64,000 bases of DNA from the NCBI GenBank assembly GCA_021107755.1, contig JAIOSF010000027.1, positions 1 through 64,000 on the forward strand, given 5' to 3'. Source of the stretch: Arcobacteraceae bacterium. Its GTDB lineage: Bacteria; Campylobacterota; Campylobacteria; Campylobacterales; Arcobacteraceae. Under the pieces are notes generated by a model, which did not search any database, had not been told where the DNA came from, and was given only the letters and a program-made list of their open reading frames with translations. The translations under genes and the position numbers were made by a program. Positions 7,716-39,829 of this stretch are shown one piece after another (positions within the stretch are counted from its first letter, which is position 1; each line of letters begins with the position of its first letter).

Positions 7716-8513
7716 ATGATAATACTAACAGGACCATGTGTCATAGAAAATAGAGATAATGTTATGAAAATAGCAGAACAATTATCAAAACTAAATGAAA
7801 ATAATAGAATAGATTTTTATTTTAAAGCGAGTTTTGATAAAGCAAATCGAACAAGTTTGGATAGCTTTAGAGGGCCAGGGCTTGATGAGGGATTAAAAAT
7901 TCTTCAAGAGGTAAAAGATACATTTGGTTATAAACTTGTAACTGATGTACATGAATCATATCAGGTAGCTCCAACAGCTCAAGTGTGTGATGTGGTTCAA
8001 ATACCAGCATTTTTATGTAGACAAACTGATTTACTTGTAGCTGCAGGAAAAACAGAGGCAATTGTAAATATCAAAAAAGGGCAGTTCTTAGCAGCAGCTA
8101 GTATGAAACATCCTGTTGCGAAAGTTCTTGCAACTAGAGGAGTTGAAGAGGTAAATTATCAAACGAGTAAGGATAATGGGGTATGGCTTTGTGAAAGAGG
8201 AAATGTATTTGGATATGGTTCATTAATTGTTGATATGAAAAATCTTATAGCTATGAGAGAATATGCACCAGTTATTTTCGATGCAACACATTCAGCACAA
8301 GTTCCAAGTACTGGTGAAACAACAGGTGGAAACAGTGCAATAGTTCCAAGCTTAGCAAAAGCAGCAGCGGCAGTTGGTGTAGATGGGTTTTTCTTTGAAA
8401 CACATTTTGACCCAAGTTGTGCACTAAGTGATGGACCAAATATGTTAAAAATAGATGATCTATATAAAACAATAGATGATATTTTTAAGATACAAGATGT
8501 TTTGGGTTATTAA
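7716..8513 (+). CDS. kdsA: 3-deoxy-8-phosphooctulonate synthase
   Basis: KdsA condenses phosphoenolpyruvate with arabinose 5-phosphate to form KDO 8-phosphate, the first committed step to the KDO of lipopolysaccharide. Family landmarks include LTGPCVIENRD at the N-terminus, FKASFDKANR around residue 38, and DATHSAQVPS near residue 188. The length of 265 residues is normal. It opens a compact run kdsA-ribH-nusB-pyrF, and its start lies one base after the stop of the channel gene, with a TAGGAG ribosome binding site inside that gene's end. Confidence 0.96.
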   Translation: MIILTGPCVIENRDNVMKIAEQLSKLNENNRIDFYFKASFDKANRTSLDSFRGPGLDEGLKILQEVKDTFGYKLVTDVHESYQVAPTAQVCDVVQIPAFLCRQTDLLVAAGKTEAIVNIKKGQFLAAASMKHPVAKVLATRGVEEVNYQTSKDNGVWLCERGNVFGYGSLIVDMKNLIAMREYAPVIFDATHSAQVPSTGETTGGNSAIVPSLAKAAAAVGVDGFFFETHFDPSCALSDGPNMLKIDDLYKTIDDIFKIQDVLGY

Positions 8514-8575
8514 TCAATTTTTAGATATAATCCGTAACATTTAAGAAAAAAGAACACTAAAATTTGGGAGAAAAA

Positions 8576-9046
8576 ATGAATATAATAGAGGGTCAATTAA
8601 GACTAAAAGGGACTGAGAAAATTGCTATCATCAATGGAAGATTTAACCATATTATTACAGATAGATTAGTTGAAGGTGCACAAGATGCATTTAAAAGACA
8701 TGGCGGAAATTCAGAAAACTTAGATCTTATTTTAGTTCCAGGTGCATTTGAGATACCATTTGCACTACAAAAAGCACTTCAAAGTGGAAAATATGATGCT
8801 ATATGTTGTGTGGGTGCTGTTATTAGAGGAGCTACACCACATTTTGACTATATCTCAGCAGAAGCAACAAAAGGGATAGCAAGTGCAACTATGCAACACA
8901 ATATTCCTGTATCAAATGGTGTTCTTACAACAAACACAATTGAACAAGCAATTGAGCGAGCTGGAAGTAAAGTTGGAAACAAAGGTGCAGAAGCAATGGT
9001 TACAATTATTGAGATGTTAGATTTATACTCTGAGATGGAAAAATAA
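8576..9046 (+). CDS. ribH: 6,7-dimethyl-8-ribityllumazine synthase
   Basis: RibH joins 5-amino-6-ribitylamino-uracil with 3,4-dihydroxy-2-butanone 4-phosphate in riboflavin synthesis, normally as a 60-subunit shell. The protein shows [12 protein letters not shown] near the start, [13 protein letters not shown] around residue 55, and [14 protein letters not shown] near residue 85, where the active-site histidine lies. I chose ATG 8576 over a TTG four codons upstream because the GGGAG ribosome binding site overlaps that TTG and is well spaced from the ATG; this gives 156 residues, the usual length. nusB begins 3 bp after the stop. Confidence 0.96.
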
Positions 9047-9049
9047 TTT

Positions 9050-9445
9050 ATGGCTACAAGAACCCAAGCTAGAGAATCAGTAATAGGATTACTGTATGCT
9101 TATGATTTAGGAAATGAGGCTATTGCTAAGTTTGCTGATGAGATTTTAGAAGATAAAAAGATACGAAATAAACAAAAAGATTTTGCACTAACATTATTTA
9201 ATGGTACTATAGAAAATCTTTTAGAAGTTGATAAAGAGATAGAAGAGCATCTTAAACAAAGAGAGATAAGTGATGTGGGAAGTGTTGAAAAAGCAATTTT
9301 AAGACTTTCTATTTATGAGACTCTTTTTAGTAATCTTGATAAAGCAATTATTATAAATGAAGCAATAGAATTATCAAAAAGACTAGCAAGTGATAATGCA
9401 CCTAGATTTATCAATGGTGTACTTGATAGTATAGAGAAAAAATAG
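9050..9445 (+). CDS. nusB: transcription antitermination factor NusB
   Basis: NusB is a small all-helical RNA-binding protein that with NusE (S10) binds boxA and supports antitermination in rRNA operons. The 131-residue sequence has the family start ([18 protein letters not shown]), the central [13 protein letters not shown] segment and the ending [12 protein letters not shown]. It lies 3 bp after ribH and 2 bp before pyrF, a common ribH-nusB arrangement in bacteria. Confidence 0.96.
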
Positions 9446-9447
9446 AT

Positions 9448-10131
9448 ATGAAACTTTGTGTTGCCCTAGATAACTCTACAAAAGAGGAAAACTTAGCATT
9501 AGCAAAAGATATACAAGAGTTTGATGTATGGTTAAAGGTTGGTTTAAGAAGTTATATAAGAGATGGACAAGAATTTCTAGAAGAGTTAAAATCTATTAAT
9601 CCAAATTTTAAAATATTTTTAGACCTAAAACTTTATGATATTCCAAATACTATGGCTGATGCAGCGCAAGAGATATGTAAATTACCAATAGATATGTTTA
9701 ATGTACACGCAACAGCAGGTAAAGTAGCTATGACTACAGTAATGGAAAGAATAAAAGATATACCAAATCGACCACTTGTATTAGCTGTAACTGCACTTAC
9801 AAGTTTTGATAATGAAAATTTCAAATATATTTATAATGAAAATATAGACAAAAAAGCTACCAAGTTTGCAAAAGATACCTTTGAAGCTGGACTTGATGGT
9901 GTTGTATGTTCAGCATTTGAAAGCCTTGATATAAAAAATAATACTTCAAATAGTTTTGTAACACTTACTCCTGGTATTCGACCATTTGGTGAAGATGCAG
10001 GAGATCAACAACGAGTTGCAGATATAAATCTTGCAAAAAAAGAATTAGTCGATTTTATCGTTGTTGGACGACCAATTTATAAATCAAACGACCCAAAAAA
10101 AGTTGTAGAAAAAATATTAAAAAACATCTAA
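9448..10131 (+). CDS. pyrF: orotidine 5'-phosphate decarboxylase
   Basis: PyrF removes CO2 from OMP to give UMP, the last step of pyrimidine nucleotide synthesis. The 227-residue protein begins with the substrate-binding [10 protein letters not shown] and has the [10 protein letters not shown] segment around residues 57-66 containing the catalytic Lys and Asp. [17 protein letters not shown] near residue 173 and VVGRPIY near residue 206 bind the phosphate. It is the last gene of the kdsA cluster, and a terminator overlaps its final codons. Confidence 0.96.
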
Positions 10132-10148
10132 AATTTAAGGTGTTTTTT
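10119..10148 (+). terminator. terminator at the end of the pyrF operon
   Basis: AAAAAACATCT pairs with AGGTGTTTTTT across an 8-base loop (one G-T wobble); the descending strand supplies the T run. It overlaps the pyrF stop and precedes the tRNA gene. Confidence 0.7.
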
Positions 10149-10178
10149 AATATAACTTAACTATAATTTCACTCCATT

Positions 10179-10268
10179 GGACGAGTGGGTGAGTGGCTGA
10201 AACCACATCCCTGCTAAGGATGCGTACTGGCAACGGTACCGAGAGTTCGAATCTCTCCTCGTCCGCCA
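10179..10268 (+). tRNA. tRNA-Ser (anticodon GCU)
   Basis: A complete 90-base type II tRNA with encoded CCA. The acceptor stem is GGACGAG with CTCGTCC, discriminator G, then CCA at 10266-10268. The anticodon stem CATCC/GGATG encloses the loop CTGCTAA with anticodon GCT at 10213-10215. A long variable arm (GTACTGGCAACGGTACC region) is typical of tRNA-Ser, and the T loop is TTCGAAT. The 3' end is duplicated 1.5 kb downstream, so the gene has served as an integration site. Confidence 0.97.
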
Positions 10269-10270
10269 CT
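10252..10270. repeat. attachment-site repeat, left (tRNA-Ser 3' end)
   Basis: The 19 bases TCTCTCCTCGTCCGCCACT form the last 17 bases of the tRNA-Ser gene plus two more and occur again exactly at 11727-11745. This is the pattern left by a tyrosine-recombinase element that integrates at a tRNA 3' end and restores the tRNA. Confidence 0.85.
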
Positions 10271-10329
10271 AATATACAATCAAATGTTTTTAACAATGTC
10301 CTATAAAATAAGGCTTTAACTAGCATAAT

Positions 10330-20893: not shown

Positions 20894-23752
20894 TTAAAAA
20901 GTTGACCACTCATCATCAGAACTGTTATCTTTTATAATAGTTGCTGGTTTAGGTGTACTACTTTGTACATCTGTTTGATTATGTTTTGATATATTATGCT
21001 CTACTTTTTTATGTCTTATATTTTCATGTGCAGGAGCATCTAGTTTACAATTTGCAAATTTAAGTTCATTAAGAACATCAAATATATTTGAAATATCTTT
21101 CTCTACTTCATTTGATAATTTTGTTAATTGTTGGTTTGTCTCACCTTTTGCATTATGATCTAAATAATTTTGAACACTTTGGTGGTATTTTGTATGTATC
21201 TCTTTTAAAGATGACCACGCAGATGTTTTTGTAAATGGTGTTTGATTATTCTCTTCTATTGCTATCCATTTACCAATATTACATTCAGTAGGTTTTTGAA
21301 CACTCCATGTTTTCTTCTCATCAAGTGACTTGAAGTATTCTCCTTTAAAAATTACATGGTCAAAGAAAAGATCATTTAATTCATATACTAATCCAACATC
21401 ACAAATTTGACCAATTGTATTTTCATCAAATTTTGCATTTGCTGCTACATCTGTAAGGTCATCAGATAATCTTTTTACCCCTTTTGCTAATTCTGCAATA
21501 TCAGTAGCATTTGAAGCATTTTGTTGTGTAGCTTTATCAAGAGTACTTACAGCATCATTGATTTGAACTATCCCTAACTCTTGCTCTTTTGATGCAGTTG
21601 TTACATTATCTACAATAACTTTAGTATCTGTGATTATAGTATTTAATGACTCATAGCCAGTTATCATTTTTGTAGCAATGCTTTTACCTTCATTTGCTTT
21701 TGTTGTAGCATTTTGAACCATCTCTTTGATCTCATTAGCTGCATCTGCACTTCTAGAAGCTAGATTTCTAACCTCTTGTGCAACAACGGCAAAACCTTTT
21801 CCTGCTTCACCAGCAGTTGCAGCTTCAACTGCTGCATTAAGAGATAGGATATTTGTTTGAAATGCAATCTGATCTATAACACTAATTGCATCATTTATAG
21901 CATTAACTTGCGCATCTATTTGTGACATAGAATTAGCAGTCTGATTTGCTAACTCTTGACCAGTGGTTGCCGAATTTGTTAAATCACTTGCAATAGATGA
22001 CATTTTAACAATATTTTCACTATTGGTTTTAATACTACTTGTTATCTCCTCTAATGCAGCTGCTGTTTCCTCTAGTGAAGCTGCTTGTGCATTAGCAGCT
22101 GTTGAAAGTTCTGTTGAAGAGTTTGTTAAAGATACAATATTATTTGCTAGTTCATCACCGCTTGTTTGAATCATTGCAAAAATCTCTGATACATTATTTC
22201 CAATAGCCTTTGTTTGTGTTATAACTGTTCCTATCTCACCACTAACATTATCAATTGATAATTTATGTGAAAAATTAGCTTTACCAAATTGCATTAAAGC
22301 TTCATTAATAGTGACAAGTTGTGTTTTCATAGTACCAATCATACTATTTAATACATCTTTTAAATCATTAATATTTTTATTATTAGCTTGACCTTTTACC
22401 TTGTACACGAAGAATCCGCTACCAACTCTATCTACTACCTCTTTAATCTCATCAATTACAACTTGGTCTTCTTTAAGTCCCTCTTGTATTGAGTCCATAT
22501 ATTGATTGAATAGTTCTGATGCTTTTCCAATTTCATCATGTGATGAAATACTTAATCTAGTTGTAATGTCATTAGAAGTTAAAAGCTTATTAAATCCAAC
22601 TTGTAAGTTCTTTAGCGGCGTAATTACACTTTTTATAATAGCAAAATAGAGAAGAGACAATGAAATAGCTAATAGTAATAGTGTAAGAACAATAAATGAT
22701 ATAACAATAGTTGCTACATTTTCCGAAGCTTGATTTTCCATGTTTATAACTTCTTGTTCAATATCATCTATATAAACACCAGTTCCTACTACCCAATCCC
22801 ACTCTTTAAAATATGCTACATAAGAGATTTTATTTTGAGGTTTATCAAAACCAGGCTTTGCCCATTGATAATTAATATACCCACTCCCTTTTGTTTTAGC
22901 AACTTTTGCCATTTCGACAAATAATAGTTTTCCATTTGGATCTTTTACACTTGATATATTGGTATTATTTAATGAAGGCTTAATGGGATGCATAACCATT
23001 TTTGGTTCAGTGTCATTTATCCAAAAGTAGTTACTACTATCTTTACCATATCTCATTTTAGAGATAGTTTTTAAAGCTTCTTTTTGCATTTGAGCTGTTA
23101 CATTATCAAGGTATTCACCAGTTCCTATAATCCAATTAAATGGTTTAAATGTAAAAATATAAGAAACTTTATCTTGTGGTTTATCAAATCCTGGTTTTGG
23201 CCATTGATAATCTACAAACCCTTGCGAGTTGTTTTTAGAAAGGTTAACCATCTCTATAAAAAACTTTTTACCATTAGGGTCTTTTAAATTAGATAAATCT
23301 TTTCCATCAAGACTTGGTTTAATTGGATGCATAACCATTTTTGCATCAGTGTTATTTATCCAAAAATAACCACTTTTACCATATTTACTATTTTTAACGA
23401 TATCGATAAGTTCTGATTGTACTGTTTTACTATTTTGATGTTTTAGATAATATTGGTTTAAGATATTTTCTAACATTTGTGCTTGAGTTACAAGTTTCTC
23501 TTGAACTTCTAGTTTGACTTTTTCTTTTGATGTTCTCTCATAAAAAGAATCGATAGTTTTTAAAACTATGTCTATATTTGATTTTAATTCATCTTGTTTT
23601 GCACTAAAAGCTTTTTCTTTAAAAAGTTTTGTGTCATCACTAGAGGTTTTTTTTATATCATATATACTAAGACTAACTAAAATAGCCGACATTACTAAAA
23701 CTATAATTGCAATAGCAAGTGTTAGTTTCCATTTGATTGATAGATTGCTCAT
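20894..23752 (-). CDS. methyl-accepting chemotaxis protein with tandem Cache domains and CZB tail
   Basis: From ATG 23752 this is a 952-residue transducer; an upstream in-frame start 13 codons earlier is less likely because [10 protein letters not shown] leads straight into the first membrane helix. The periplasmic part has two near-identical sCache_2-type units (each with [15 protein letters not shown] and KPGFDKPQ). A second helix, a HAMP segment, and the signalling hairpin ([20 protein letters not shown]) follow. After that comes a CZB zinc-binding domain with His in FFDHVIFK, Cys in ECNIGKWI and His in TKYHQS. It ends in DDEWSTF, like a CheR/CheB tether. It sits in the nif region on the opposite strand. 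Confidence 0.93.
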
Positions 23753-23878
23753 AAGTACTCTTTTCTCATAATTTACAACATTATTATACAAAATTTTTGT
23801 AGCATAATAATAGCATATATTATAATTTTAATTATCTTAATTTTAAGGATATAAACTTAAATTAAAATAAAGTTGTTG

Positions 23879-26340: not shown

Positions 26341-27333
26341 ATGGAAAAATCAATGGAAGATTTTATAAGATGGCTTAAGTCCAATAGTCTTTGTTCAAAT
26401 ATACCTACAGACAAAGAGCAATTAAAAAATCTATCAATACTAGATTTAAGTAAGAAAAAGATTAGAGAACTCCCAAGTAGTATTGAGTTTCTTGAAAACT
26501 TACAAATATTAAAACTTTCAGGGAATAGATTAAAGAGTTTACCAAAAACTATTGGAAATCTTAAAAAGTTAAAAAACTTACAATGTGAAAATAATCTTTT
26601 AGAGGAGTTACCATCAACCATTGGAGATTTAAGTTCACTATTGGTACTTAATATAAATGGTAATAAAATAAAGCAACTACCAGAAGAGTTTTATAATCTT
26701 AAAAAACTTACACGACTTACAATAGCGGCAAACTCTTTAGAGTATCTTTCACCAAAATTAGCAAACTTAAGTAAGCTTTTGTATCTCTCATTAGATACTA
26801 ATTGTTTAAAAGAGTTACCAGATGTATTTGATACAATGAATTCTTTGTACTATTTAGATATCTCTTACAATGAATTTAATGTTTTACCAGAATCAATTGG
26901 TGATATAGAGGAGTTAGAGACTTTACTTTTAGAGGGAAATGAGATTGAAAACCTACCTTCATTAGAGTCACATGATATGTTGATGCGATTAAATCTTAAT
27001 GACAATAATATAAGTGAATTAAACTTTGATATAAGTAGTTTAGAAGATTTACAAATTTTGACTCTTGATAATAATAATCTAAAATTTATTCCAGATACTA
27101 TTTGTAAATTAAAAAACCTTAACCATTTAAGTATTTCTGCAAATCAATTACAAGCGTTACCAGAGTGTATGGGCGAGTTGGAAAATCTTTTAGAGTTAGA
27201 TATTGAAGAAAATAATATTAGTAATTTTCCTCAAAGTTTTAAGAATCTAAAAAAACTAAAAAATCTTTACATAGATAATAATAAAAAACTAAAAAGACCA
27301 AATTTAGAATCTTTGGAGTTTTGTGATATATAG
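26341..27333 (+). CDS. leucine-rich repeat protein in the nif operon
   Basis: After about 35 residues the 330-residue protein is built of about twelve 23-residue leucine-rich repeats of the form LxxLxLxxNxLxxLPxxIxxL (for example ILKLSGNRLKSLPKTIGNLK). There is no signal peptide or membrane segment, so it is cytoplasmic. Such solenoids bind partner proteins. LRR genes occur in some nif clusters, where their job is unknown. It is the last gene of the nifV run and faces the chemoreceptor gene. Confidence 0.85.
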   Translation: MEKSMEDFIRWLKSNSLCSNIPTDKEQLKNLSILDLSKKKIRELPSSIEFLENLQILKLSGNRLKSLPKTIGNLKKLKNLQCENNLLEELPSTIGDLSSLLVLNINGNKIKQLPEEFYNLKKLTRLTIAANSLEYLSPKLANLSKLLYLSLDTNCLKELPDVFDTMNSLYYLDISYNEFNVLPESIGDIEELETLLLEGNEIENLPSLESHDMLMRLNLNDNNISELNFDISSLEDLQILTLDNNNLKFIPDTICKLKNLNHLSISANQLQALPECMGELENLLELDIEENNISNFPQSFKNLKKLKNLYIDNNKKLKRPNLESLEFCDI

Positions 27334-27353: not shown

Positions 27354-29384
27354 TTAAAAACTTGCCCACTCATCATCATTTGTTTTAGATACTATAGGCT
27401 TGAGTTTTGTTTGTTCTGTATTTTTATCTGAACTATTCTCTTTAGGTGAGTTGTCTATTTTCTCCTCTTTATTTTTTTTATGAGATACACTATTACTTTG
27501 AGCTTTAACAGTCTCTTTTCCAGTAAACTCCTTTTCATTAGCACTTTGTAGTGCTCGTGTTGCAATAGTATCAGTTTGGATTGCTATCTCATTTGTTTGA
27601 GATGCTATATTGGCATTTTCTTGTGTTTGTTTATCAAGGGAATTAATTGCATCATTTATTTGAACAATCCCATCTTTTTGCTCTTTTGAAGCAGTTTCAA
27701 CATCATTGATAAGTTGGATAGTTTTAGTGATACTATTGTTTAGATGTTCATAACCATTTATCATACTATCTGATGTTTTTTTACCTTCGTTTGCTTTATT
27801 GGCAGCACTTTCAACTAAGGACTTTATCTCATTTGCAGCTTCTGCACTTCTAGATGCTAGATTTCTAACCTCTTGAGCAACAACAGCAAAACCTTTACCC
27901 GCTTCACCAGCAGTTGCAGCCTCAACAGCAGCATTGAGTGATAAAATATTTGTTTGAAATGCAATTTGGTCAATTACAGATATGGCTTCATTGATTGATG
28001 TAACTTCATTATTAATTTCATCCATAGCTTGCGTTGTTTTATTTGCAAGGTTTTGACCTTGTTCAACTGACTTAGTTACCTCTTGTGCATAATCAGACAT
28101 TTTAATTACATTACTAGTAGTACTTGAGATATTCCCTGTTAATTGTTCGAGTGCAGCTGCAGTTTCTTCTAGTGCTGCAGCTGCTTGATTTGAGTTGGTA
28201 TTTAGATGATTAACATTTTCTAAAAGTTTTTTTGAACTATTTTGAAGAGTTAACCCACTAGATTTATTTTCAACTAACATTTCAGTAATAGCATCCCGTA
28301 GTTTATTTATATCAGTCAATAATAATTCAAAGACACCACCTTTTTCAATCCCATCAATTTTTAAACTATTTCTATAATCTAGATGAGCATATTGTTCTAG
28401 TATTAAATTAATATCTGAAAAATGCTTTTTTGTTTCTACTATCATACTATTTACATCATTTTTAAATTCATTAAGTGATGTATTGGTAGTTGAAGATTCT
28501 ATTAGCTGTGAATACCAACCATGTTTTACTCTACTAATAACAGCTTTAGCTTCATCCATAACTGTATTGTCCTGATCAATTTCAGTTTTAAGACTGTGGA
28601 TATTTTGGTTAATTACTTTTGCCATATTTCCAATTTCATCATTTGCTTTATCATCTAGAAGTTGGATATTACTTTGTTCTCTATTAAGATATTTGAAGAA
28701 ATCAAGAAGACCAGATTGTAGTCCATTGATAGAGTTTACAATTCGATCACTTAATAATTTAAAAATTAACCCTAAAAATAGGATTAAAGCTACACCAAAT
28801 ATTATTATTTCTAGTTCAACTGAGTTCATTGAATTAGTTATTTCTTTCCCTAATGAAGAATTTTCATCTCTATGTTCTTTTATCCAAATTTCAAGTGCAT
28901 CGGAAAGTTTAGCAGCAAAAGGATCTAGCTGAAGCATCATCTGATTACCAGCAGTAGTACCTTCATTGATATAGCTATTTGCCATTTTAATACCTATATT
29001 ATAATAATTGTTGAAGTTTAATTTAAAATTTTCTAGATCTTGTACCATTTGAGGTTCATTATATTTTTTATGTTCACTAATAAGATGATCTAGTAGCTTA
29101 TTCCCATCTTCATAATATTTTTTAGCTTCAACAAATCCATCATCAAATCCCTCTTTTGCTTTTGTTGCAGATATGTCAGTAAGCCATTGTTGTACCTGTA
29201 TAACATCAAGTTTTAGATATAAAAAACTAAAAGCATGAGGTAGTACCTCTTCCTCTTTATCTTTGAGTGCAGCTTTAATATTATCTATTAAAGCATAGTT
29301 TATAACTATATTTATTCCACTTAGCAATATAACAAGAGTACTAATGGTTATTAATACTTTTCGAATTGAGATGTTTTTTAACAT
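27354..29384 (-). CDS. methyl-accepting chemotaxis protein with helical sensor
   Basis: This 676-residue transducer has an N-terminal membrane helix (residues about 8-28), a periplasmic all-helical region of about 160 residues that suits a four-helix-bundle sensor, a second helix near residue 195, a linker, and the classic MCP tip ([20 protein letters not shown]). It ends in NDDEWASF, parallel to the DDEWSTF end of the chemoreceptor at 20894. It lies 21 bp downstream of the histidine kinase gene on the same strand with its own GGAG site, so it appears to be third gene of a binding protein-kinase-chemoreceptor operon. Confidence 0.93.
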
Positions 29385-29405
29385 ATTTTCTCCTTTAATT
29401 TATTA

Positions 29406-31034
29406 CTATTTTAGTGGTAATATAATACTAAAATTTGCACCTTTATATTCTTTATTTTCTACTTGAAATATGTCATTATTTACTTCTATTTGTCCACCCA
29501 TACCCTCTACAACCATAGTGTAAGTCATATGAAGACCAAGTCCTGTACCTGTTTTTTTATCTTTTGTTGTAAAATAAGGCTCAAATATTTTTTCTAGAAT
29601 ATTATCGTCTATTCCCCCACCACTATCTTGAAAACTAATTATTATTCTATCTTTATTCACTTTAGAAGTGAGCTTAATAAATCTATCATTTTCATTAATG
29701 GTATCTAGTATATCTTTTGCATTATTAAAGATATTCATATAACATTGAATAAGTTCGTTGGGATAGGAGTTAAGAGTGATATTTTTTTCTAAATCATAGA
29801 TCATAGTAATACTGTGATTTTTAATAGAGGAGTCTACAAGCTTAAGAAAACTATTGATATTTTCTTCTAAATCAAATTTTAATTTTACCCTATCACCTTT
29901 AATAAAATTTCTAAAATCATCAATAGTTTTGGAGAGGTATTGTGCATTATCATTTATAAGATCACAAGTTTCTTCAAAAAACTTATCATCTAGGGTATTG
30001 AAAGTTTTTTTCATCTTCATCCCTGTAGCACCAGTAGATATTATAGAAAGGGGTTGTCTCCATTGATGAGCAATATTTCCTATCATTTCACCCATTGATG
30101 CCATTTTTTCAGATTTAAAGAGTTGTTTTTGGATTTGTATATTTTTTTCAACTTCCTCTTTTACTCTTTGTTCTAGGTTTGCATTAAGAACTTGGAGTTC
30201 ATGGTCACTTTCCTCTAACTCTCTGTTTTGTTTTTCAAGTTTTATAGTTTTTTCTGTTACTTTCTCTTCAAGGTTTTTATTGAGTAATCTTAATTCTTGT
30301 TCATTTTCTTTTATTTTTTCTAACATAGAGTTAATTTCTTTAGAAAGTGAGCCAATCTCATCTATCCTTTTAGTGTCAACTTCAATATCTCTCTTTCCAT
30401 TGGTTATTTGTTTTGCAATCGAGATTAATTTATAAAGATTTTTTGTCAAACTTATTGAGAGTATGTAAGCAATTATTATCCCTAAAATAATTGCTAATGT
30501 GGTATAAAAAAAACCATTTAAAGATATCTTATTTAGAATTTGAGTATTGCTTTTTAAAGATAAAGCAACTCTTGCCCATCCTATATGCTGTGTTTGTCGC
30601 AAAATAGGAACAGCAATATCTATCATATTTGAATTATTAATGAGTATAGTTGTGATAGGTTTTGATTTTAATGGTAAGAGGCTTATCTCATCCCCAAGAT
30701 ATTTATTGAGGTGTTTTTTGTTTGTATGTGCTAGAACTTTACCATTTGTGTCAAAAATCATTGCATAGTGTAACTCTGGATATTGTACAATTGAGTTCAC
30801 TATCTCTTCTAGTCCTACATAATCATTTGCTAAAACCCATGAGGTTGCATTTTTTGCAAGAGTAGTTGTTAGACTTATTGTTTGTGTAAGGCTTTGTTCA
30901 TGTAAAAAATCTTTTTGTTTACTAGTTAATTCTACTATAAACAAGCTCATAAAAACTACATTTGTAATAACAATAGTTATTATTAGTTGTCTTTTAATAG
31001 TTTTAGAAAAGAAGTTATTAATAGCTTGAATCAT
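29406..31034 (-). CDS. membrane sensor histidine kinase (Cache-HAMP)
   Basis: The 542-residue protein has two membrane helices (about 15-36 and 175-197) around a periplasmic Cache-like sensor (MIFDTNGKVLAHTN), a HAMP segment, a coiled coil (residues 235-305), and the kinase core. The phospho-acceptor is His323 in IAHQWRQPLS. The ATP lid shows DSGGGI and GTGLGLHM. It overlaps the upstream PhnD-like gene by 4 bp. No response regulator is adjacent. Its core is closely like the kinase at 37955. Confidence 0.92.
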   Translation of the reverse strand: MIQAINNFFSKTIKRQLIITIVITNVVFMSLFIVELTSKQKDFLHEQSLTQTISLTTTLAKNATSWVLANDYVGLEEIVNSIVQYPELHYAMIFDTNGKVLAHTNKKHLNKYLGDEISLLPLKSKPITTILINNSNMIDIAVPILRQTQHIGWARVALSLKSNTQILNKISLNGFFYTTLAIILGIIIAYILSISLTKNLYKLISIAKQITNGKRDIEVDTKRIDEIGSLSKEINSMLEKIKENEQELRLLNKNLEEKVTEKTIKLEKQNRELEESDHELQVLNANLEQRVKEEVEKNIQIQKQLFKSEKMASMGEMIGNIAHQWRQPLSIISTGATGMKMKKTFNTLDDKFFEETCDLINDNAQYLSKTIDDFRNFIKGDRVKLKFDLEENINSFLKLVDSSIKNHSITMIYDLEKNITLNSYPNELIQCYMNIFNNAKDILDTINENDRFIKLTSKVNKDRIIISFQDSGGGIDDNILEKIFEPYFTTKDKKTGTGLGLHMTYTMVVEGMGGQIEVNNDIFQVENKEYKGANFSIILPLK

Positions 31035-31945
31035 TTTGTATTTCCTATATTTCTTACTTCATTTTCAAATTTTACTAAAAATAATTCAACAGACTTGTAG
31101 GTTTCTTCATCCGCTTTTTCAAATTTACTCAACTCCATTGGTTTGAGTATTTTTTGCCCCTCTTTTGTTGTGTGTAAGTTAAAAAGCAAGGTAGCAACTT
31201 CATTGACTAATTTTTTTGGAATATTTTTTTTAACAACAAGTCCATTGTTTGGTAAGCTTTGTGTTTCCCACTTTATCTTAAGCTTATTTGCTATCAATGG
31301 TCGGTCTTTTTTAAAAGATTCCCAAGGTGGTGGCCAAGTAGCAGCGGCAACAGACTTATTTAGATAAAGATTCATAATAGAGGATTCTTGGGAACCTACA
31401 TAGCTATTTTTAATATCTTTATTTATATCAATTCCTTGTTTAAATAAAAAGTATTGTGGTAACATTGTTGCAGCAAGTGCTGTTGGTGCGGGATAACTTA
31501 TTGTTTGACCTTTTAAGTCTTCAACAGTTTTTATATTACTATCTTTACGAATAAGAATTATCCCTTTGAAGTTTTGATCATCTCCCATTTTCCCAAATAT
31601 TTTATATCCATGCTTTAAAGACTGAACTGTTTGATAAGGATTGGGCAAAGAGAAATCAAAATGACCAGAAAAGAGTTTTTTATTATATGCTGCATAATTT
31701 CTTGAGGCTTCTAACTTTAATTGAATGGTTGGAATGTTTTTATTTATATAGTCAACTAAAGGTTGATATACCTCAAAAAGTTTTTTTGGATTATGTAGAG
31801 GATGTATTCCTAAAGTATAGGTTTGTTTAACAAAACTTGGTTTATCAGTGTATACAGGTATGTAGTTTGTATCATCATCATTACAACCACTAAAGAAGAT
31901 TATAATAGATAAAAAAATTGTCGCCAAAGTTATTTTTACTTGCAT
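31031..31945 (-). CDS. PhnD-like periplasmic binding lipoprotein
   Basis: This 304-residue protein has a lipoprotein signal peptide ending in FFSGC (Cys about 21) and a PhnD/SsuA2-type binding fold. Family segments include GIHPLHNPKKLFEVYQPLVD, a DFSLPNPYQT segment and the ligand-binding FKGIILIRKDSNIKTVEDLKG. Relatives bind phosphonate, phosphite or similar oxyanions for ABC importers. No permease or ATPase gene is near; instead it overlaps a histidine kinase gene, so it likely acts as the ligand-binding part of a sensor. The ligand cannot be fixed from sequence. Confidence 0.88.
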   Translation of the reverse strand: MQVKITLATIFLSIIIFFSGCNDDDTNYIPVYTDKPSFVKQTYTLGIHPLHNPKKLFEVYQPLVDYINKNIPTIQLKLEASRNYAAYNKKLFSGHFDFSLPNPYQTVQSLKHGYKIFGKMGDDQNFKGIILIRKDSNIKTVEDLKGQTISYPAPTALAATMLPQYFLFKQGIDINKDIKNSYVGSQESSIMNLYLNKSVAAATWPPPWESFKKDRPLIANKLKIKWETQSLPNNGLVVKKNIPKKLVNEVATLLFNLHTTKEGQKILKPMELSKFEKADEETYKSVELFLVKFENEVRNIGNTK

Positions 31946-32156: not shown

Positions 32157-34109
32157 TTATCTAATTACAAAGTCTTTTTTTAGTTGTTGCATAATAGTAT
32201 TGATAATAGTTAGTTCATTCGTGTTTACAGCTTCAGATTTTAATTTTTCTATATTTTTTAATAGTGGAGAGAACTTTTTGATTGCTGCTTGTGAAATGGC
32301 TCGATGAGTTTTTATTTTTGATTTTAATTCAATAAAATATAATAAAACTTTTTTATTTCCAATAAGTGCTGCATATATACTAGGAAGTATCCCATAATGG
32401 TCAGGGGTGTTTTTTATATCACTATCAATATGATTAATTAATTTTATCACCTCTAAGTTATTTGACCAAACTGCACTATGTATTACAGTACGACCAAGTT
32501 TATCAACTATTTTATAATTAAAGCGTACTCTTTTTAGAAGTGCTTTAAAAAGGTTTCTATTACATGGTGTTTGAGCAACAATTTTACTTATAACTGTCCA
32601 TCCAGTTTTATCTTGAAAATTATGGTCAACTTTTGCACTTACTAACATACTTAAGCCTGTCTCAAAATCTATCTCATCATTGTCATTTTGAAAAGCATGG
32701 AGTACATATTCAAAAAAAAGATTATTTCCATCATTGTTAAGGAGTTGAAGATCAACTCCTGCTTTTAAATAAAGTTTAAAAAGAGGAATATTATCATAAA
32801 GGAGAGGTTTAAAGAAAATTGGATTTCCTTCAGAGTCTAAAAAGTCTAACTCTCGTTTATAGTATTTTAATAAGGCTTTAAGTACATTCATAAATCTTGT
32901 ATTTCCAACAGCATGTTTCATTACATCATTATCTATAAATTCCATATTCCCATGGTTACTTAACACAAGGTTATTAAGAATTTCAAATATAGTTTGATTT
33001 TTATTGTTTTTTATTGTGGGGTTAGCATCGTGCTTTAACAGCAGTATAGTGATTGCTAGTTTTTCGATACCGCCATAACAAGCATAAAAAAGTGGAGTTT
33101 CTCCATTATTATTTTGTAAGTTAATATCTATTTTTTGTTGTAAGAGCATTAAAGTAGATTCTAGTTCGCTAGATTTTATAGTTTGAAAAAGAACATTTTC
33201 ATTATTTTCATTTACTGCATTAATGTCTATCCCAATCTCAATGAGTTTTTTACCCATAGATAATAAGCTATTTCTTCTAGCTTCATCTGAAGGGTCCATA
33301 TTTGATAAAGCAGAGAGTACCTCCATAAGAATTGTATTCTTATTGGCAACTCTTGAATTAATATTAAAACCATTTTCTAAGGCAGTTTCTATAATATTAA
33401 AAGATTCTATACCTCTTTGTGCTACTATTGATAAATAGGTATTTCCTTCCTTATTACTCAAGTTTGGATTTACACCATGATTAATTAGTTTTAATGCTAC
33501 TTCATCATTATCTAAAGAAAAACTATGGTGTAAGATATTATTATTTTCATTATCAATATTATTTAAGTCAAGTTGTTTTAAGTGAAGAAGATAATCTATG
33601 AACTCAATATTTCCATATGAAAAAGCATCATGGAGAATATTTTGTCCCTTATTATCTTTAGAATTTACATCAGCTCCGTATTCTATAAGAGTCTTTGCCA
33701 TTTCATGGTCACCTAACATTATAGAATCTTGTAATTTAGTTCTCCCATGGAAATCTTTTTTATTAATATCAGTATTGTGAACAGTTGAATCTATTTTAGA
33801 GAGTATCATTTTAACAATTCTATGGTTTTGATTCTCTATTGCAATATCAAAGGGTGTAAATCCATTTTTATTTACAATATCTACATCAATATCATTTTCT
33901 AGTAACCAAATAGCAGAATCAACTTTACCATTGTATATTGAAAGGTATAAGTAGTTTTCATCGTTAGAGTTTAGGTGATTGATATCAATATTATCTTCAT
34001 GAATGAATTTATCTAACTTTGATTTATTAAAATTATTATTTAATAATGCATTCAAAAACATTTCATTTACATTGCCATTTTGTATTTTCTGAACTAGTTT
34101 TTTTATCAT
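32157..34109 (-). CDS. ankyrin repeat protein
   Basis: The 650-residue protein consists of about a dozen or more ankyrin repeats, recognised by segments like GRTKLQDSIMLGDHEMAKTL, GQNILHDAFSYGNIEFIDYL and TPLFYACYGGIEKLAI. No signal peptide is evident, suggesting a cytoplasmic protein-binding scaffold. It stands alone between the PhnD-like gene and a divergent thioredoxin-fold gene, with about 200 bp of A/T-rich non-coding DNA upstream of the former. Function is unknown. Confidence 0.9.
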   Translation of the reverse strand: MIKKLVQKIQNGNVNEMFLNALLNNNFNKSKLDKFIHEDNIDINHLNSNDENYLYLSIYNGKVDSAIWLLENDIDVDIVNKNGFTPFDIAIENQNHRIVKMILSKIDSTVHNTDINKKDFHGRTKLQDSIMLGDHEMAKTLIEYGADVNSKDNKGQNILHDAFSYGNIEFIDYLLHLKQLDLNNIDNENNNILHHSFSLDNDEVALKLINHGVNPNLSNKEGNTYLSIVAQRGIESFNIIETALENGFNINSRVANKNTILMEVLSALSNMDPSDEARRNSLLSMGKKLIEIGIDINAVNENNENVLFQTIKSSELESTLMLLQQKIDINLQNNNGETPLFYACYGGIEKLAITILLLKHDANPTIKNNKNQTIFEILNNLVLSNHGNMEFIDNDVMKHAVGNTRFMNVLKALLKYYKRELDFLDSEGNPIFFKPLLYDNIPLFKLYLKAGVDLQLLNNDGNNLFFEYVLHAFQNDNDEIDFETGLSMLVSAKVDHNFQDKTGWTVISKIVAQTPCNRNLFKALLKRVRFNYKIVDKLGRTVIHSAVWSNNLEVIKLINHIDSDIKNTPDHYGILPSIYAALIGNKKVLLYFIELKSKIKTHRAISQAAIKKFSPLLKNIEKLKSEAVNTNELTIINTIMQQLKKDFVIR

Positions 34110-37954: not shown

Positions 37955-39829
37955 TTGAGATTAAAAGTCATTATTTTAACACTTTTTATTTTCTCTTATG
38001 GTATAGTTTTATTAGTAACTTCTCAAAATAAAAATACAAGACTTGATTTGATATTAAAAACTCATATCAATCTATTAAAAACTCATTACAAAATCACAAA
38101 AGACTATTTTATTACAGATGCAAAGAATATACAAAGTACTTTTTTAGAAGATAAATATGTTATTAATATTTTAGAAAAAGCACAAAGAGCTACCAATGAA
38201 GAGCGAGCTATTTTAAGAAAAGAACTTTATGACTTTTTAGCTCCTTTGTACAAAAGACTTCAATTAAAAGGGATTAATCAAATACATATAGTATTTTCAA
38301 ATAACATCTCATTTTTAAGAATGCATAAACCAAATAAGTTTGGAGATGATTTAACAGAGATAAGATATACTTTTAAATATGCTAATGAGATGAAAAAAAG
38401 TATTTTTGGGTTTGAACAAGGGCGTTCTACTCATGCTTTTCGATATACTTTTCCTTTTATCCATAACAATCAACATATGGGTGCTATAGATATCTCTTTA
38501 TCATCTGAATCTATTCAGGAAAAATTACAAGATATAAATAATATTCATTCCCATTTTTTAGTAGATAAAAAGATATTTCATAAAAAAGTTTGGGAAAGTA
38601 GTAATCTTATGAACAGGTATATTCAAAGTATTGAACATAAAGATTATATGTTTACATTAAATAAATTTCATAACAAAGAAAGATTATTGAATAGTAAAAA
38701 GAGAATAATATTTCCTTTAAAAGATGAAATAAATAAAAAAATAGAGTTAAAACAACCCTTTGCTGTATATAAACAATATACAAATAATGTAAATGTAGTT
38801 ACTTTTTTACCAATTGATAATGTACGAGAAGAGAAAGCTGTAGCTTATTTGGTATCTTATGATAAAGATCCATATATTTATGATATATATAGAAGTTATT
38901 CTATTATAAATATAGTATTATTTGTAGGTTTGGCAACACTATTTTACTTTATCTATAGAAATTTAAATTATAAAAAAGAGCTAGAGGAAGAGGTCTCTAT
39001 AAAAACGAAAGATCTACAAAAAGTTAGTAAAAATCTAAAAGACTTAAATGAAAATTTAGAACAAAAAATAGTTTTTGAAGTTGAAAAAAGTAAAGCTATG
39101 GAGAGCAAACTATTCCAGTCTGAAAAAATGGCCTCTATGGGAGAAATGATAGGAAATATAGCACATCAATGGAGACAACCACTTTCTGTAATATCTACAG
39201 GTGTAACAGGTATGAAGATGCAAAAAGAGTATGATTTATTAACTGATGATATTTTTAATGATACTTGTGATGTGATTAATAAAAATGCACAGTATCTCTC
39301 TACAACAATAGATGATTTTAGAAACTATATTAAAGGGGATAGAGAGAAAAAAGTTTTTAATCTCAAAAAAGATATTAATAGTTTTATCCATCTTGTAGAG
39401 GGGTCAATTCATAAATATAATATAAATATAGTTTTGGATTTAGATGAATCTATAGAGATTAATGGATATGAAAATGAACTTACCCAGTGTTTTATCAATA
39501 TTTTCAATAATGCTAAAGATGTTTTAGTAGAGATAGAAAATAGTTCTGAACGATATTTGTTTATATCTACAAGTATAGAAAATGATAGAGTGCTAATAAA
39601 AATTAAAGATAATGGTGGTGGGATACAAGAAGATATAATGCCAAAAATATTTGAACCATATTTCACCACTAAACATCAATCTCAAGGTACAGGACTTGGT
39701 CTTCATATGACTTATAGTCTTATAGTTGAGGGGATGAATGGTACTATTGAGGCAAAAAATATTTGTTTTGATTATGAAGATAAAAACTATAATGGATTAG
39801 AGATTACAATAACACTTCCGTCTGAATAG
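37955..39829 (+). CDS. membrane sensor histidine kinase (large Cache sensor)
   Basis: The 624-residue protein begins with TTG 37955 behind AAAGGG and has an N-terminal helix, a periplasmic sensor of about 280 residues with double-Cache features (SFLRMHKPNKFGDDL, then FPFIHNNQHMGAIDIS), and a second helix near residue 317-333. A coiled coil leads to the kinase core with His404 in NIAHQWRQPLS, DNGGGI and GTGLGLHMTY. The core is strikingly like that of the kinase at 29406, while the sensors differ. No response regulator gene is adjacent. Confidence 0.9.
   Translation: MRLKVIILTLFIFSYGIVLLVTSQNKNTRLDLILKTHINLLKTHYKITKDYFITDAKNIQSTFLEDKYVINILEKAQRATNEERAILRKELYDFLAPLYKRLQLKGINQIHIVFSNNISFLRMHKPNKFGDDLTEIRYTFKYANEMKKSIFGFEQGRSTHAFRYTFPFIHNNQHMGAIDISLSSESIQEKLQDINNIHSHFLVDKKIFHKKVWESSNLMNRYIQSIEHKDYMFTLNKFHNKERLLNSKKRIIFPLKDEINKKIELKQPFAVYKQYTNNVNVVTFLPIDNVREEKAVAYLVSYDKDPYIYDIYRSYSIINIVLFVGLATLFYFIYRNLNYKKELEEEVSIKTKDLQKVSKNLKDLNENLEQKIVFEVEKSKAMESKLFQSEKMASMGEMIGNIAHQWRQPLSVISTGVTGMKMQKEYDLLTDDIFNDTCDVINKNAQYLSTTIDDFRNYIKGDREKKVFNLKKDINSFIHLVEGSIHKYNINIVLDLDESIEINGYENELTQCFINIFNNAKDVLVEIENSSERYLFISTSIENDRVLIKIKDNGGGIQEDIMPKIFEPYFTTKHQSQGTGLGLHMTYSLIVEGMNGTIEAKNICFDYEDKNYNGLEITITLPSE

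Follow-up and report, generated by a model that had tools for sequence, protein, structure and literature searches.

A PhnD-like periplasmic binding protein (SBP) and the sCache-HAMP histidine kinase (HK) encoded next to it in an Arcobacteraceae bacterium probably represent the two halves of one receptor, with the chemoreceptor (MCP) that follows them being independent and showing no sign of using the binding protein; we place the probability of this reading at roughly three in four. Given that 10 of 11 characterised SBP-activated kinases are gene-linked to their binding protein, as against only 3 of 11 SBP–chemoreceptor couples (PMC11113362), we treat SBP and kinase as one receptor and set the MCP apart. 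In this two-part receptor, the lipoprotein would capture a small periplasmic molecule; docking of the SBP, in its loaded (or its empty) state, on the sCache domain of the kinase would change autophosphorylation, and an unlinked response regulator would then act on genes.

Organization of the locus

The window (that is, the whole 64,000-nucleotide stretch of DNA that was analysed, from a host genome of 2.6 Mb in 33 contigs) carries the three genes between those of a leucine-rich-repeat (LRR) protein and an ankyrin-repeat protein (Table 1). A reading made from the sequence only had placed them on one strand, with a 4-bp overlap, a 21-bp gap and neither permease nor ATPase, and this layout holds, as the ORFs of the locus and its flanking genes include no ABC permease or ATPase. 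On the coding strand, the HK–MCP gap reads TAATAAATTAAAGGAGAAAAT-ATG, with a clear Shine–Dalgarno sequence, and a terminator scan found no terminator-like hairpin in the SBP–HK or the HK–MCP junction. The MCP is probably carried on one transcript with SBP and HK. Counting against its independence, the short gap and good ribosome-binding site would fit a real operon that includes the MCP.

Table 1. Features of the SBP–HK–MCP locus (positions in the window)
Feature	Position	Strand	Details
SBP, PhnD-like periplasmic lipoprotein	31031-31945	-	304 aa; PF12974 E=8e-52
HK, sCache-HAMP histidine kinase	29406-31034	-	542 aa; sCache_3_2 E=3e-15 (domain at approximately residues 35–175), HAMP, HisKA, HATPase_c
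MCP, chemoreceptor	27354-29384	-	676 aa; MCPsignal E=2e-37
SBP stop/kinase start overlap	31031-31034	-	4 bp
Kinase–MCP gap	29385-29405	-	21 bp; Shine–Dalgarno AAAGGAG
LRR protein, flanking	26341-27333	+	
Ankyrin-repeat protein, flanking	32157-34109	-	650 aa

Another MCP encoded in the window (20894-23791) combines a sensor region of the dCache_2 type with a CZB zinc-binding domain at its C terminus.

A conserved SBP–sCache gene pair

We read in context 83 relatives of the SBP (approximately 36–67% identity; one gene, split by a broken frame in L059, is entered twice in this count) from Campylobacterota, Gammaproteobacteria, Desulfobulbales-type and other genomes. At every one of the 83 loci, a membrane protein bearing the same sCache sensor domain is encoded 3' of the SBP, on the same strand and within 1.5 kb, so that the adjacency seen in the window is far beyond chance. 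The 4-bp overlap between SBP and transducer recurs in 29 of 64 other measured junctions. An HMM of the sCache N-terminal region matches each of 60 SBP-paired transducers; when it was compared with 52 further signalling proteins, drawn from the window and from other loci, its sole match was the window kinase. Distances in SBP and sCache trees are correlated (mirror-tree r=0.77, a value reached by none of 1,000 permutations), with shared phylogeny contributing part of the correlation.

Relatives occur in 9 of 104 genomes of the whole family (host included) and in 13 of 397 genomes of the class sample, and at 9 loci of the GTDB contig set; searches around three of these hits also found them in the order of a Thiomicrorhabdus (34 of 63 genomes), the class of a Candidatus Electrothrix (25 of 258) and the class of an Azonexus (11 of 369), and a search of viral contigs found none. 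The host's family includes an Aliarcobacter MAG, and L008 and G023:C36 are one and the same contig.

The cytoplasmic part of the paired transducer varies across these relatives, being a histidine kinase, a hybrid kinase, a GGDEF or a GGDEF-EAL protein. Arcobacter-type relatives have a kinase, most other Campylobacterota a GGDEF or GGDEF-EAL output, the order of Thiomicrorhabdus a GGDEF-EAL output or a hybrid kinase, and the class of Electrothrix mostly a large kinase. The core of the window kinase shares 58% identity with that of another window kinase 7 kb away (37955-39829) and 38–50% with kinases of orthologous SBP pairs, and this closer match to its neighbour suggests that the output module has been replaced (or converted) in the window too. 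As read from these genomes, the pairing of SBP and sCache genes is obligatory and co-inherited, with the cytoplasmic output exchanged between lineages.

Near the SBP–transducer pairs in the relatives' loci, no cognate ABC genes were found. Another proposal, which we consider very improbable, is that the SBP is a stray importer subunit working with a PhnCDE-like permease whose gene lies on contig 33 of the host genome. The host does encode such a transporter, but this has its own SBP (23% identity to the window SBP), the relatives' binding proteins are always paired with transducers, and the residues that would anchor a phosphonate are lost in the window SBP. We rejected a role as part of an ABC importer.

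One observation counts against the two-part receptor: the window locus lacks a regulator, a Trans_reg_C protein, whose gene immediately precedes that of the SBP in Arcobacter-type relatives. Its best match in the host genome has 31% identity, and no close ortholog was found there.

Two further arrangements of PhnD-like domains were seen in and near the host. The host genome (G000) encodes a second PhnD-like SBP on contig 6 (L092:7369-8214), which overlaps a hybrid kinase gene (8211-10283) by 4 bp; a response regulator-PAS-GGDEF gene lies upstream, the pair has no transporter, and the sCache profile built for the window pair finds no match in the N terminus of the hybrid kinase. In genome G002, of the host's genus, a PhnD-like domain is fused directly to GGDEF in one protein of 515 aa (L018:1456-3003).

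Fold, pocket and candidate ligands

The SBP has a lipobox (...FFSGC21) in which Cys21 is invariant in the alignment of relatives, and its AlphaFold2 model (pLDDT 87) matches PhnD, PtxB, ArrX, AioX and XAC2383 in Foldseek searches. The oxyanion bound by PhnD or AioX is held by a histidine together with two serines (PMC5908839). By HMMER profile alignment, the Ser-Thr-Ser of PtxB corresponds to Ala156-Leu157-Ala158 of the window SBP and the PtxB histidine to Gln186, so that neither the Ser-x-Ser anchor nor the pocket histidine is present; the replacements are family-wide, with A156, L157, A158 and Q186 conserved in 63/64, 63/64, 64/64 and 62/64 members, respectively. Because these anchor residues are replaced, phosphite, phosphonate, arsenite and arsenate appear doubtful as ligands, as judged from a sequence alignment. 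Phosphite, phosphonate and arsenate had been suggested in the sequence-only reading; a ligand chosen by analogy with the family name was rejected on the loss of the pocket anchors. The genus names of many carriers of the SBP point to sulfur cycling, and known kinases with a PhnD-like sensor respond to thiosulfate and tetrathionate (PMC5408782), which together lead us to guess that sulfur compounds are worth testing.

The chemoreceptor

The periplasmic sensor region of the MCP is helical and approximately 160 residues long (approximately residues 30–195). It belongs to no Pfam family, and profile searches against PDB and Pfam returned no significant match. A single-sequence AlphaFold model was poor (pLDDT 54), and the weak four-helix-bundle matches that it gave in Foldseek, none below E=0.001, were left out of the argument. 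The region may represent an undescribed type of sensor domain or a strongly diverged helical bundle.

Orthologs of the MCP, all with the MCP signalling domain and 37–54% identical in the sensor region, are encoded in 11 other Arcobacteraceae-type genomes, and none of these genomes has an SBP beside the ortholog. Their neighbours are unrelated genes, for example (with names judged from sequence only) those of a short-chain dehydrogenase, a TetR-type regulator or an RND-type system. In the two genomes that possess both (G013 and G064), the SBP–kinase pair is encoded far from the MCP ortholog. A sensor motif of 13 residues, then ...DDGF, is invariant across 12 genomes (window 28740-29384 and loci L075-L085), and given this conservation where no SBP is near, the MCP most likely senses by itself.

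Downstream of the SBP–transducer pair, an MCP was found at none of the 83 other loci. The host genome encodes approximately 14 intact MCPs (15 matches) among approximately 2,600 genes (a count estimated from genome size), which gives a chance of about 0.5% that an MCP follows a given gene and an expectation of about 0.45 cases in 83 loci. As chance alone gives about 0.45, one MCP neighbour in 83–84 loci is unremarkable, and the MCP is probably an independently evolving receptor that landed 3' of the pair in the host, that is, a chance neighbour.

These data bear on two other accounts of the locus. Under the first, which we regard as distinctly unlikely, the three genes work as a unit: once loaded, the SBP would engage the sCache domain of the kinase as well as the helical sensor region of the MCP, driving gene control and taxis together. 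The tight same-strand spacing, the ribosome-binding site and the lack of a terminator speak for it, as does the precedent of SBPs that activate kinases and of SBPs that activate chemoreceptors (PMC9602780); at one further locus, L193, an MCP gene precedes an SBP-GGDEF/EAL pair, although its sensor domain is of another type, DAHL. Against this stand the absence of a downstream MCP at all 83 other loci and the sufficiency of chance to explain the juxtaposition, the invariant sensor motif that MCP orthologs keep with no SBP nearby, and the unrelated sensor regions of kinase and MCP, which would require one SBP surface to fit two folds. It is correspondingly improbable that, in the host species, an SBP of altered ligand specificity serves two unrelated sensor domains such that one binding event would set both expression and taxis.

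Under the second account, also unlikely, the MCP is only co-regulated: its availability under the conditions of the SBP–kinase pair would have been selected, and it would sense its own ligand directly. The operon-like spacing and the conservation of the sensor motif in orthologs without an SBP agree with this, but the arrangement is not conserved and so gives no sign of selection for co-regulation.

In the L193 stretch (L193:4464-9940), the MCP gene lies, with a 112-aa ORF, just upstream of the SBP-GGDEF/EAL pair, on the same strand; apart from the window MCP, no other has this orientation at a distance of 0.5 kb or less. We rejected it as independent support for the triple given its different (DAHL) sensor domain, its upstream position and its absence from other loci, and counted it as another chance neighbour.

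The SBP–HK–MCP triple was thus found only here, an outcome that the sequence-only reading had itself named as refuting its proposal. The sequence search covered four genomes of the host's genus, of which three are incomplete, and may have missed a small clade that has the triple; such a clade would attest that the arrangement was recently inherited, but not yet that it has a function.

Relation to known systems

By its predicted proteins, the window pair is probably of the AioX–AioS, LuxP–LuxQ and TorT–TorS kind, in which the genes of an SBP and of a kinase that has a periplasmic sensor domain are linked, with neither permease nor ATPase. The SBP shares the PF12974 fold of the PhnD/PtxB/AioX group without the genes for an ABC permease and ATPase. 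A periplasmic receptor–diguanylate cyclase pair, XAC2383–XAC2382 of Xanthomonas citri, was reportedly described by Teixeira et al. (2018; doi 10.1074/jbc.RA118.003475, listed among the references of PMC10380989). Like the window pair, it joins a PF12974 periplasmic protein to a membrane transducer, and GGDEF outputs are frequent among relatives of the window pair; in the window itself, by contrast, the output is a kinase, with GGDEF found only in relatives. Foldseek and profile searches both match the window SBP to the XAC2383 structure (5ub3), but the two sequences are far apart (profile E=5e-5). In TtrS and ThsS, a PhnD-like domain controls a kinase, with tetrathionate and thiosulfate as ligands (PMC5408782), although there the sensor is fused in one polypeptide whereas the window has a separate lipoprotein and an sCache domain. 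Similar in layout are the AioX–AioS(–AioR), ArxX and ArrX systems, in which a PhnD-fold SBP without a transporter is likewise gene-linked to a sensor kinase (PMC5908839). AioX and ArrX are Foldseek and profile matches of the window SBP, but the pocket Ser, Ser and His of AioX and PhnD are Ala, Ala and Gln here, and the window operon has neither a response regulator nor adjoining arsenic-respiration genes.

For the chemoreceptor, MBP–Tar and LsrB–Tsr are precedents for SBP input to an MCP whose sensor domain is helical, and joint inheritance or linkage of SBP and MCP is common but not obligatory among SBP-dependent chemoreceptors. The window MCP differs from these in that it is not conserved beside the SBP. 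That SBPs serve chemoreceptors elsewhere without conserved linkage (PMC11113362) nevertheless counts against the independence of the MCP.

Implications

The sequence-only reading held that one binding protein might feed both a gene-control branch and a movement branch; its tie to the kinase and the lack of a transporter are borne out, with the pair found to be conserved across phyla, and its movement branch is not supported. If the triple were true, it would be a compact example of one binding protein with two outputs, but the comparative data do not back it. What is new is a family of PhnD-like SBPs with a changed pocket, tied to an sCache domain with exchangeable outputs, whereas the kind of system is ordinary. 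The SBP–sCache pair is a good system for finding the ligand and for studying the coupling of a single input domain to various outputs.
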